This document shows positions 8,194 through 20,934 of a stretch of 20,934 bases of DNA, piece after piece; positions within the stretch are counted from its first letter, which is position 1, and each line of letters begins with the position of its first letter. Both the position numbers and the translations under genes were made by a program. The notes under the pieces were generated by a model. That model did not search any database. It saw only the letters and a program-made list of their open reading frames with translations, and was not told where the DNA came from. Source of the DNA: a virus. The stretch spans positions 1-20,934 of IMG/VR virus record IMGVR_UViG_3300032289_001659. One strand, written 5' to 3'.

Positions 8194-8886
8194 ATGGCAC
8201 GCATAATGGTACTTGGAGACTTGCATCTTCCATATACGCTTTGGCCTGCGGTAGAGGCCGCGGCCTTGTTTGCCCGTCAATATAAGCCTGACTTAATCAT
8301 ACAGGTAGGGGATTTAATCGACGGAAAAGCATGGTCCAGATATCCTAAAGACCCTGATGACTGCCCACAAACAGAATGGGATGCGACGGAAATCGCAGTT
8401 CATCGCCTCCATAAATTATTTCCTGAGATGGTAATTTTATCTGGAAACCATGATAGACGAATTATGCACAAGGCTGCTGAGGCTAGTATCCCTTCTCAAC
8501 TAGTTAAAACACTGGAAGAGATTTTCCCGTACAAACAGTGGATTTGGCATGTGGGTGGGAAACCTTTTCAAATCCATGACACAGTATTCATTCATGGTGA
8601 TGAGACACTAGGTAATGCATGGCAAAAAGCTCAACGCATGGGTAAGAATGTTGTTCAGGGCCATGACCACCAAGCATATCTAAACTATATTAACACTTTC
8701 GACACTAGTGTTTATGGGATGTCCGTGGGTACTTTCCTAGATGGTAAAAGTGCTGCTGCTAGATATGCCGCTAGAAATCCTTTTCGTTGCTGGCTTGGAT
8801 GGGCAACAATTACAAATGGAGTACCTGCTCTCCACCCTTATCATGAGAAAAAAGGGGGCTATAGTGAAGAAACCTCGACAAAATAA
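8194..8886 (+). CDS. Calcineurin-like metallophosphoesterase
   Basis: This 230-residue protein starts at an ATG behind a strong AAGGAGG site 6 bases upstream. All the metal-binding motifs of the family are present in order: GDLH (D9, H11), GDLID (D40), GNHD (N85, H86), HGDE (H134) and GHDH (H157, H159). These coordinate a two-metal centre that hydrolyses phosphomono- or diesters; the substrate cannot be read from the sequence. It has no signal peptide or membrane segment, so it is probably cytoplasmic. It is on the opposite strand to the surrounding structural genes and overlaps a small downstream gene. Phage enzymes of this type can act on nucleotides, nucleic acid ends or signalling nucleotides. 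Family call secure, role open. Confidence 0.93.
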   Translation: MARIMVLGDLHLPYTLWPAVEAAALFARQYKPDLIIQVGDLIDGKAWSRYPKDPDDCPQTEWDATEIAVHRLHKLFPEMVILSGNHDRRIMHKAAEASIPSQLVKTLEEIFPYKQWIWHVGGKPFQIHDTVFIHGDETLGNAWQKAQRMGKNVVQGHDHQAYLNYINTFDTSVYGMSVGTFLDGKSAAARYAARNPFRCWLGWATITNGVPALHPYHEKKGGYSEETSTK

Positions 8887-9352: not shown

Positions 9353-10003
9353 TTAGTGGTCCAGATATTTTCCAAAACATTGAAGTTCTGCCGCTTTTCT
9401 TGCTTCTACAGCTTCTTCAAAAGACCCATAGATTCCTAGGTAGATATTTTTGTTTCCGTCACAGCAGATATATGATCTCCATTGACCTTCTCTGTTGCTC
9501 CACGATACTCCTGTTTTACCCGACGAATTAGTGGAAAACCTCCTGCGATTCTGCGCTTGCTCAAAATATGTAGACCACTTGCAGTTTGCCTTACAGTAGT
9601 CCCCTGAATTGTCTATGCGGTCTATAGAATGTTCCATTGTGGGCCTAGGCCCCATATCCTTATAGAATTCCTCGAAATCGTTCCATCGGGGGTCAACTTC
9701 AATCCCTCTTCCTCCATACCTATCGTACCCCCTCACCTTGGGGTTTCGGCACCTGTTCAACATACATTGCCATATAGAGTACTCCCCACACTCTTTCATC
9801 CCGTGTTTAGTGAGCCTCTCTTTTGCCCTTTCTGCTACTTGGCATCCACAAGAATTAGATCGTCCTCTAGCTAGACTATTAGCACTTATGAGTTTAGTTG
9901 TGCCGCACTCGCACACACAGTACCAGTGTCTACGTCCTTTAACGCTCTCGCTCTTTTCACTTACGGTCAGCATTCCAAATTTTTGGTCCGCCAGATTACG
10001 CAT
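9353..10003 (-). CDS. HNH endonuclease with AP2-type DNA-binding domain (homing-type)
   Basis: This 216-residue protein starts at an ATG behind GGGAGG. The N-terminal part has a Cys-rich segment (C29, C31, C33, then C52 and C54) that may form a small zinc site. Residues about 120-155 carry the HNH core: HSIDRIDN (H125, D131, N132) followed by CKWSTYFEQAQNRR. Residues about 161-203 resemble an AP2 domain (TGVSW, then W and Y positions, then YLGIYGSFEEAVEARKAA). This is the layout of free-standing phage homing endonucleases, which cut a specific DNA site and so spread their own gene. It sits directly behind the capsid gene terminators, a common insertion position for such genes. No intron is evident in the capsid frame. 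Confidence 0.9.
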   Translation of the reverse strand: MRNLADQKFGMLTVSEKSESVKGRRHWYCVCECGTTKLISANSLARGRSNSCGCQVAERAKERLTKHGMKECGEYSIWQCMLNRCRNPKVRGYDRYGGRGIEVDPRWNDFEEFYKDMGPRPTMEHSIDRIDNSGDYCKANCKWSTYFEQAQNRRRFSTNSSGKTGVSWSNREGQWRSYICCDGNKNIYLGIYGSFEEAVEARKAAELQCFGKYLDH

Positions 10004-18447: not shown

Positions 18448-19128
18448 ATGGCATACCAACTAGTTGAGCTTAGTCTACAAAACTATGCTCGAAAAATCAC
18501 TGATGCTCTTCCCCTCCAAATTGGTGTTGGGGGTTTGAGTCCCAATGACGTTACTACCTTAATCGTGTCTGTTGTAGTTGGGGCCGTTACAGGAACAGCT
18601 ACTATTACTCTTGAGGAATCCGTTGACGGTGGAGTCTCTTGGACCACAGTTCCGGGCACTCTAACAAGCGGAACAATCAACGCTCCGGGCACCTACTCCA
18701 TTCGGGTTACGGAACTGAGTGGGATTATATCCCCTGCGATTAGGTTAGTGATTACTGCCGCCTCTGGTGGGGTGGTTTACATCTCCAGAGCATACCGCAC
18801 ATTGTCTACTGGTAACAATATTATACCTAGAACCGCTATTTCACTCGGTACTGGTCTAGCGACTGAAGCTAAACAAGACACAATTATTACTGCAGTAGAC
18901 GGTATTGAGGCAGCACTTGCCACACTTAATGCGGTCAATTTTGCTACAGAAGCAACTCAACAAAAGCTGCGAAAGTGGCCCTATGCCACACACGCAAAGA
19001 TTGCGCCATCAGAGGATGTCACAAACAAATACTACACTTACAAAACTGCTGCCGATGTAACAGTGGGAACTATTACCATCAATAAATCAACTGGCTTGAT
19101 AACTTATTCGCCTGACAGGACGGTGTGA
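18448..19128 (+). CDS. Beta-sandwich virion-like protein, member 2 of a tandem pair
   Basis: This 226-residue protein starts at an ATG behind AAAGGGG at 6 bases. Residues about 1-120 form a beta domain (GTATITLEESVDGGVSWTTV, then PAIRLVITAASGGVVYISRA) similar in strand order to the preceding protein. Residues about 135-170 hold a short helical linker (ATEAKQDTIITAVDGIEAAL) of the kind seen in trimeric phage fibres. The last 50 residues are beta again (KYYTYKTAADVTVGTITINK). It could be a head fibre, a decoration protein or a short tail spike. It ends 2 bases before the fibre start, so the genes probably form one transcript. Confidence 0.75.
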   Translation: MAYQLVELSLQNYARKITDALPLQIGVGGLSPNDVTTLIVSVVVGAVTGTATITLEESVDGGVSWTTVPGTLTSGTINAPGTYSIRVTELSGIISPAIRLVITAASGGVVYISRAYRTLSTGNNIIPRTAISLGTGLATEAKQDTIITAVDGIEAALATLNAVNFATEATQQKLRKWPYATHAKIAPSEDVTNKYYTYKTAADVTVGTITINKSTGLITYSPDRTV

Positions 19129-19130
19129 CG

Positions 19131-20934
19131 ATGACTATTTACGAAGAGTTTAATCCGTTACTAGAGGAGAATATGCAGAAGATTACCGTGCCGTCATTGG
19201 TACGGGTCGAGACTGTAGCCGCTGCAAAGCTCTTGGGCAGGAGTGCAGGCACAAACGATATTGGCGTGCTTTACGTTGCAGAGAAACAGGGCTTCTACCT
19301 TTGGTGTGACAATTGTCCACATCCTGTTGATGACGACATGGTTTTTATCACGGCAGACGGTGGGAACACTCGCTGGGAACTTGTGCAAAAAGTTTCTCGC
19401 ACTCAGGGCGACACCGGTTGGATTGACAGAGACGGGCTCACGCTTTCAAAGCTGAACCCTACCACACTTCGGGCAGCGTTCACGGGGCCGGCCACTTACG
19501 CAAAAAACTCTGTTAGATACACTCTTCCCATTGGGGATTATGACATAGTTCTTAGCGGTGCGGCAGGAAACAAGTGGGTCTATTTTGACACAGACATGAC
19601 TCTCAAGTTTATCGACGGCAATCCAACGGACTTTTCTTCGCAAACTTGGGTGGCCAATGTGTTCTGGACTGGCAGCGTGATTGGAGGCATCCAGACAGAG
19701 TTCCACGGAATTCGAGACAGCGTATGGCACGCTTGGGCTCACAAGTATTTGGGGACTCAATACACAAGCGGCCTTAGCATAACCACAAACACACAGCCAG
19801 ATAGCATCACAGACCCTAACGCCGACACAGTACAGTTCCTTTGGCTCACAACGGGTGTGATTCATGACGAAGACACTCAAGTTGACGTGGGAACAGGAAA
19901 CTGGCTACAGACTCTTGGGAGTGGCTTAACAACCACAACGGCTGCCTCAATTCCGTTTTTCTATTACAACGGCACGGCTGTTGTAGGCGTTGCGGCGAAT
20001 GCTGACAGATACCCGTTCTTATACACTGGTGACAATGGAACCCCACAGTGGGAGAACGGCGGCACTCTCACACCGGCAACAAACGGTCAGTACGTTGTTT
20101 ATCACTATTTTGCTTCTCCTTTTATAGATGGATACAGTGTTTTTGCACGACCTCACAACGCAGTATTCACAACTCTGGCAACCGCTCAAGCTGCAAGACC
20201 TGCTTCTCTTATCTGGTCTAGTATTGGTGAATTTAAGCACATTTATAGCGTTGTATTCCGCGTAAACACACCATGGGCCCCTGTTCCCGCTCACGCTTGC
20301 AAGATTGTAAGCGTGCAGGACTTTCGGTTAACCTCAAGTGGATCGGCAGCGGCTCAGAACGCATCAACTCACGGGGCACTGTCTGGCTTATCGGACCCGA
20401 ATGCACACCCTGCCACAGCGATATCTGTAGACGCTGCAGGTTTCGATGGAAACCTTGCACCAACTGACGACACAGTTCAGAAGGCATTGCAAAAATTTGA
20501 TGATTATACTCCTGCAGCACCAACAGCCTCTACAACTTCTGTTGTAACCACAAGTTTCAAAAGGGCTCTCACCACCTCTGAGGACACCGTTCAAAAAGCC
20601 CTGAACAGACTGGAAAAAACAAGTAGTAAAGCTACCTCCACATTAGCAGTCAGGGCAGTTTCAACATGGGCCGCTAGAACTAGCGCCGCTGATAATAGTT
20701 GGCTGTCTGTTTGCTGGAGTCCTGAACTAGGTTTGTTTTGTGCCGTTTCAGAGACAGGCACAGGCAATAGGGTTCAAACTTCTCCTGATGGAATCAATTG
20801 GACAATCAGAACAAGTGCGGCTGATAATGGTTGGAGGTCTGTTTGCTGGAGTCCTGAACTAGGTTTGTTTTGTGCCGTTTCAGATACAGGCACAGGCAAT
20901 AGGGTTCAAACTTCTCCTGATGGAATCAATTGGA
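19131..20934 (+). CDS. Tail-fibre-like protein with C-terminal propeller-type repeats, 3' end outside the window
   Basis: The frame is open from the ATG at 19131 to the right edge (601 codons). The site upstream is weak (GGTG), so it may depend on coupling to the preceding gene 2 bases away. The N-terminal 400 residues are beta-rich with Trp and Gly (VYFDTDMTLKFIDGN). From about residue 414 comes HGALSGLSDPNAHP, a pattern common in phage tail proteins. Two DDTVQKALQKF-type coiled-coil motifs follow at 446-456 and 484-494, typical of trimer-forming segments. From residue 516 begin 44-residue repeats (SVCWSPELGLFCAV, then VQTSPDGINW), which resemble beta-propeller or BNR-like blades. The protein is likely a receptor-binding fibre or spike. 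The end is not visible. Confidence 0.85.
   Translation, partial: MTIYEEFNPLLEENMQKITVPSLVRVETVAAAKLLGRSAGTNDIGVLYVAEKQGFYLWCDNCPHPVDDDMVFITADGGNTRWELVQKVSRTQGDTGWIDRDGLTLSKLNPTTLRAAFTGPATYAKNSVRYTLPIGDYDIVLSGAAGNKWVYFDTDMTLKFIDGNPTDFSSQTWVANVFWTGSVIGGIQTEFHGIRDSVWHAWAHKYLGTQYTSGLSITTNTQPDSITDPNADTVQFLWLTTGVIHDEDTQVDVGTGNWLQTLGSGLTTTTAASIPFFYYNGTAVVGVAANADRYPFLYTGDNGTPQWENGGTLTPATNGQYVVYHYFASPFIDGYSVFARPHNAVFTTLATAQAARPASLIWSSIGEFKHIYSVVFRVNTPWAPVPAHACKIVSVQDFRLTSSGSAAAQNASTHGALSGLSDPNAHPATAISVDAAGFDGNLAPTDDTVQKALQKFDDYTPAAPTASTTSVVTTSFKRALTTSEDTVQKALNRLEKTSSKATSTLAVRAVSTWAARTSAADNSWLSVCWSPELGLFCAVSETGTGNRVQTSPDGINWTIRTSAADNGWRSVCWSPELGLFCAVSDTGTGNRVQTSPDGINW
20676..20934 (+). repeat. Tandem 132-base (44-residue) repeats in the fibre gene
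   Basis: Unit 1 is 20676-20807. Unit 2 begins at 20808 and is cut by the right edge after 127 bases. Apart from the first third of each unit, the two copies are almost identical at DNA level, so the duplication is recent or kept uniform by recombination. Each unit carries one WSPELG...TSPDG blade-like motif. More units probably follow outside the window. Confidence 0.93.

Follow-up and report, generated by a model that had tools for sequence, protein, structure and literature searches.

Near-identical propeller blades with four hypervariable positions per blade in phage fibre-like proteins

Results

Two near-identical units at the open end of a fibre-like gene

The window analysed here is the whole of the IMG/VR record IMGVR_UViG_3300032289_001659 (20,934 bases). 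Its last gene is fibre-like and is made up of a body, a linker module and a tandem repeat that runs into the contig end. The features of this gene are listed below, where L003 is a colinear relative (L003:3808-7551) with the same gene order and GTG start.

19125..20934, plus strand: fibre-like gene; GTG start overlaps the upstream gene; 603 codons up to the contig end, with the frame still open there
19125..20408, plus strand: fibre body, aa 1-428; 51% identity over aa 48-433 to a blade-free spring-water phage protein and 30% to the L003 body
20409..20663, plus strand: linker module, aa 429-513; two DTVQKAL motifs; 85% amino-acid identity to L003 over aa 429-515
20664..20681, plus strand: closing ("velcro") strand, TWAART (aa 514-519), which by prediction fills in the last blade
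20676..20807, plus strand: blade unit 1; 132 bp, 44 aa
20697..20705, plus strand: hypervariable codons 12 and 14 of blade 1 (S, L), flanking a conserved Trp; blade 2 counterparts at 20829-20837 (G, R)
20751..20756, plus strand: hypervariable codons 30 and 31 of blade 1 (E, T); blade 2 counterparts at 20883-20888 (D, T)
20808..20934, plus strand: blade unit 2; truncated at the contig end, with 127 of 132 bp present

Tandem Repeats Finder placed the repeat at 20676-20934 (period 132, 2.0 copies, 94% matches) with a score of 469, compared with 78 for the next best repeat in the window. A preliminary description of this DNA had reported two successive, nearly identical 132-base units, and this was confirmed: the units are 94.5% identical in DNA, with 7 differences in 127 bases, and both are in frame up to the contig end. 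Three codons differ synonymously (20679, 20682 and 20685) and three are replaced (20697 S/G, 20703 L/R and 20751 E/D). The closing strand opens with "TW" at 20664-20669, so that the array starts slightly earlier than the position 20676 given in that description.

The fibre body had no Pfam or PHROG match, and a search of viral contigs found no relatives of it. Two exact-DNA probes, one from the linker and one from the unit, found no second IMG/VR contig that holds both. Elsewhere in the window, a metallophosphoesterase (8194-8886, plus strand, phrog_221) lies amid structural genes, and a 216-aa ORF (9353-10003, minus strand) resembles by eye a free-standing HNH-type endonuclease.

Blade relatives are numerous and mostly count in sevens

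A search of viral contigs with the blades of the window units returned 391 relatives, and profile searches found at least 580 stretches of viral contigs and at least 369 stretches of genome contigs that encode blade relatives. The closest by context were L002, L003 and L004, in which the terminase is 64% identical, the intervening genes are colinear, and the fibre gene has a GTG start overlapping its neighbour, as in the window. The L003 fibre carries 14 blades (2 x 7) with a longer linker after blade 7, followed by RKANLLSEILNLKTS and a stop codon. Such an extra linker was located exactly between blades 7 and 8 in L003, L041 and L059.

Blade copies were counted with a blade HMM in all complete relatives. 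In a first set of complete arrays, 38 had 7 blades, 5 had 14 and 2 had 21, and in a larger set the count was a multiple of seven in 68 of 87 viral and 66 of 76 cellular complete genes. Blade number thus appears to be set by ring closure, and the earlier suggestion that the repeats vary fibre length is disfavoured. Some complete genes had 3-6 blades, several of these being among the purest arrays, for which short-read collapse is a likely but not proven cause. Array length is not the same in two near-identical contigs, L062 and L069 (99.8% over 6.4 kb), perhaps through short-read collapse or through a true deletion.

Several other records carry arrays in different settings. The contig IMGVR_UViG_3300048080_000252 (L039, L049 and L054) has several separate arrays, with 14 + 7 blades and more. 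Synechococcus phage B23 (MN695335.1, L081:4911-5876) has an unannotated plus-strand 321-aa ORF with seven blades; its record lists two minus-strand hypothetical genes over this ORF, probably an annotation error. The same blades were found in many bacterial genome contigs (L083-L162), including those of Asticcacaulis and Cyanobium/Vulcanococcus, with DUF2793 in 11 and a Por secretion tail in 4 of the 39 scanned.

The blades form a closed seven-bladed propeller in the modelled relative

AlphaFold2 modelled the first L003 array (35 arrays) as a closed seven-bladed propeller of 28 strands, with a pLDDT of 93 and a pTM of 0.92. The ring in this model is closed by an N-terminal strand, the first strand being E10-13, and the window encodes the same closing strand immediately before unit 1. 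In complete arrays a lone W-strand comes first and the final blade has no PDGxxW strand, which is the signature of a ring closed in this way. Foldseek matched the L003 model to seven-bladed designed WRAP propellers, to 2ymu and to G-beta, as well as to a phage protein at a TM-score of 0.95. The model of both L003 propellers together, based on only four sequences, was poor (pLDDT 63.5, pTM 0.44) and does not demonstrate closure of the second ring; in this low-confidence model the linker module is predicted to be partly helical.

The preliminary description had read the WSPELG/TSPDG units as propeller blades, and structure prediction had been set beforehand as the test. The propeller closed, in the array of the nearest relative. 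The seven four-stranded blades are a property of relatives, the window itself encoding two, and L003, instead of stopping without further units or a propeller, continues to 14 blades before its stop codon. Because the counts are mostly seven or its multiples and the modelled ring is closed, these results support the propeller reading and not a variable fibre length.

Known blade types fitted poorly. The L034 propeller scored 12.8 bits against the Pfam WD40 cut-off of 27, and the strict Asp-box SxDxGxTW was present in 3 of 1594 blades, the shorter S(P)DGxxW being present in 1344. A sequence search of the PDB gave marginal matches only, among them a weakly similar sialidase (E 0.2).

Blades are alike within arrays and the module appears to be shared between fibre bodies

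Outside the hypervariable columns, blades are 72% identical within arrays and 45% identical between arrays. The two window blades, 94.5% identical to each other in DNA, reach 81% with their best L003 blade, and that best match is blade 5, not the positional counterpart. In other arrays the synonymous sites are saturated and the protein is conserved, so that some arrays are freshly amplified and others old. Repeated amplification or conversion fits this combination of high identity within arrays, non-positional best matches and mixed ages. The recent expansion or gene conversion proposed earlier is in line with the window units, which have been homogenised recently and resemble each other more than they resemble any blade of L003. 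A codon-level four-gamete test was positive in 0 of 202 arrays, so that clean reshuffling of the two variable pairs against each other was not demonstrated; four-gamete pairs at the nucleotide level were common (54%), and recurrent mutation can cause these.

Comparisons along the gene show module exchange. Between the window and L003, identity is 85% over aa 429-515 and up to 88% in the blades, compared with only 30% in the fibre body, and the similarity to the blade-free spring-water phage protein stops at window aa 433. Fourfold sites also differ less in the linker module (0.45) than in the terminase (0.71) of the same pair. The propeller and its linker thus appear to be mobile between fibre bodies, with an apparent exchange boundary, as placed by these alignments, at aa 429-435.

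Four positions per blade are hypervariable

Across arrays, blade columns 12, 14, 30 and 31 are highly variable and the surrounding columns are not. In pure arrays, the first and second codon bases of these four columns differ in 52% and 57% of pairs, and in the other columns the first, second and third bases differ in 8%, 5% and 20% of pairs. Our estimates of pN and pS come from Nei-Gojobori counts on pairs, not from a codon model that allows for recombination, and cover pairs at most 12% apart from 41 viral arrays. For these young pairs, pN was 0.32 at the four codons, compared with a pN of 0.028 and a pS of 0.12 elsewhere, and 63% of the amino-acid replacements fell in 4 of 31 codons. Here pN at the four codons was 2.7 times the pS of other codons and 2.0 times that of the same codons. 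The replacements that separate the two window units, three in all, lie at columns 12, 14 and 30 (chance 3.5e-4). Columns 12 and 14 are also variable in cellular loci, where the second pair is shifted to columns 28-29.

On the AlphaFold2 model the columns lie where strand A begins and where strand B ends. Assigned from the strand order of an antiparallel meander, all four would share one face of the propeller, the D-A/B-C loop face. What the preliminary description had said of the blades holds for the repeat and for the propeller, and it had missed these four positions.

Related blades are found in tail-fibre proteins

Several of 58 relatives match tail or tail-fibre PHROGs. The tail fibre of Caulobacter phage KSC has a T7-type N-terminal domain (PF03906) followed by related blades. 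In L205 the blades are behind Mtd_N and a collagen-like shaft; a single protein there (L205:4903-6882) has an Mtd_N-like head, a collagen-like Gly-x-y shaft and six near-identical blades. An N-terminal virion-attachment domain was thus recognised in KSC (PF03906) and in L205 (Mtd_N), and none was matched in Pfam or PHROG in the window body. Propeller blades had been called unusual as the distal part of a podovirus fibre, a remark that is not borne out by the numbers of viral and genome stretches given above, by the KSC fibre or by other phage propellers (PMC4901313).

Discussion

We consider it likely, with a probability of about three in four, that the gene ends in one or more closed seven-bladed propellers that are homogenised by recombination and diversified on one face, which probably binds the host. 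The C-terminal module would be a single propeller or a tandem pair, interrupted at the contig end after blade 2. The blades would be kept alike by amplification or conversion recurring inside the gene, and ring closure would hold their number at seven or a multiple. Selection would diversify four residues per blade on the D-A/B-C loop face, giving about 28 variable positions on a fixed scaffold, and this putative variable face would most likely bind a host surface molecule. We infer both the full number of blades in the window gene and the role of recombination in homogenising them; receptor binding is suggested by the fibre context and the pattern of selection.

Other explanations account for parts of these observations. 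Recent copying without selection, with variable columns that are simply unconstrained surface positions, would agree with the repeated origin of highly repetitive propellers in all major lineages (PMC9218822), but unconstrained codons should give pN close to pS, and with the ratios of 2.7 (codons elsewhere) and 2.0 (the same codons) we regard it as unlikely. An open, extendable shaft whose copy number tunes fibre length or host range could draw on two near-identical tandem units as a good substrate for slippage, and genes with 3-6 or 14-21 blades do exist. This idea is largely refuted by the concentration of counts at seven and its multiples, and since the extra linker falls precisely between blades 7 and 8 in three relatives and the model closes into a ring, it is improbable. 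The possible duplication of a unit at the contig end during assembly has in its favour that the unit sits at this end and that 35 of 198 arrays extend to the end of their contig. Tandem 44-aa units of the same architecture are seen, however, in many independent contigs, and arrays of like kind are present in isolate phage genomes, so that the window repeat is not an assembly invention; the differences between the units are also structured. Such an artefact, already refuted for the units and scarcely credible as an account of the repeat, can explain only why the contig stops there.

Two further alternatives concern what the variable face does and how it arises. Some phage tailspike propellers are enzymes (endosialidases), and a catalytic or purely structural role, for example as a depolymerase or sialidase-like enzyme in place of a binding surface, would find some support in them and in the weak sialidase resemblance from the PDB search. 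We think this rather doubtful, since the most variable residues share one face with an excess of replacements, the opposite of a conserved active site, and the strict Asp-box is nearly absent (3 of 1594 blades). Mutation of the four positions by a diversity-generating retroelement (DGR) would explain why the variability is focal, as it is in DGR targets, and one relative does have an Mtd_N domain. No reverse transcriptase (RVT_1) was found in 51 records, many of which are fragments, and the variable codons are not confined to adenine positions, third-base changes being included; a DGR is therefore very improbable. In addition, all blades vary, and not one C-terminal template-matched repeat.

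The closest parallel is with the HNWD immune receptors (HET-D/E/R) of the fungus Podospora anserina, which have near-identical WD40 repeats under concerted evolution with selected codons on the top of the propeller (PMC2873952, PMC4986451, PMC12222747). These number four per repeat in two pairs, 7,9 and 25,27 (PMC2873952), and two propellers in a row also occur (PMC12222747). The phage arrays share the high internal identity, and their pairs 12,14 and 30,31 are offset by the same 18 residues as in HNWD, with nearly identical spacing overall; the four selected positions on one face are likewise shared, on the phage side as judged from pairwise counts and strand order. The differences are that HNWD proteins are intracellular receptors with canonical WD40 repeats, whereas the phage proteins are fibre-like with a non-WD40 blade, and that HNWD repeat number is polymorphic, whereas most phage counts are seven or a multiple of it.

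Propellers with highly repetitive blades have been described in general, viral examples among them (PMC9218822), as have propellers in phage receptor-binding proteins (PMC4901313). The former are newly amplified from single blades, also in viruses (Pereira and Lupas 2022, PMC9218822), and WRAP, 2ymu and their relatives resemble the phage arrays in being repetitive propellers and in their Foldseek matches to the L003 model; they differ in that the portions of that paper cited here describe no phage fibre role and no per-blade hypervariable positions. Staphylococcus aureus phi11 Gp45 (five blades), PRD1 P2 and PhiKZ gp131C (seven blades) have a propeller as a proven or putative host-recognition domain, and near-identical blades are not mentioned in the portions of the source cited here (PMC4901313). 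The PDB search detected no sequence relation of our blades to these three proteins. Caulobacter phage KSC gp039 has the T7-type fibre domain followed by related blades, which are diverged and about 40% identical to the window blades. Mtd of phage BPP-1 and other DGR-varied tail proteins have focal variable residues set on an unchanging scaffold at the tip of the fibre. The blade family resembles them in this respect and in the Mtd_N of one relative, and differs from Mtd in the missing reverse transcriptase among the 51 records and in the fold, which is another one in the Mtd variable domain. Our literature search found no prior description of near-identical, diversified blades in phage fibres, and one may exist elsewhere.

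The best-known cases of focal diversification in phage receptor-binding proteins involve retroelements. The blade family suggests another route, in which the blades stay uniform through recombination and constant in number through ring closure, with selection acting on four positions per blade on one face. By this route the host-recognition surface would keep changing while the scaffold looks to stay fixed. By analogy, we see an even chance that phages use the HNWD recognition design independently of retroelements, with seven near-identical blades, two codon pairs about 18 apart and concerted evolution, as a tip module that could be swapped across tail architectures and would represent a large undescribed host-binding repertoire. 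The reading predicts which residues matter, namely codons 12, 14, 30 and 31, and suggests why contigs built from short reads break in genes of this kind. The likeness to the fungal immune receptors, if true, would mean that the same solution has been reached on different sides of recognition conflicts.
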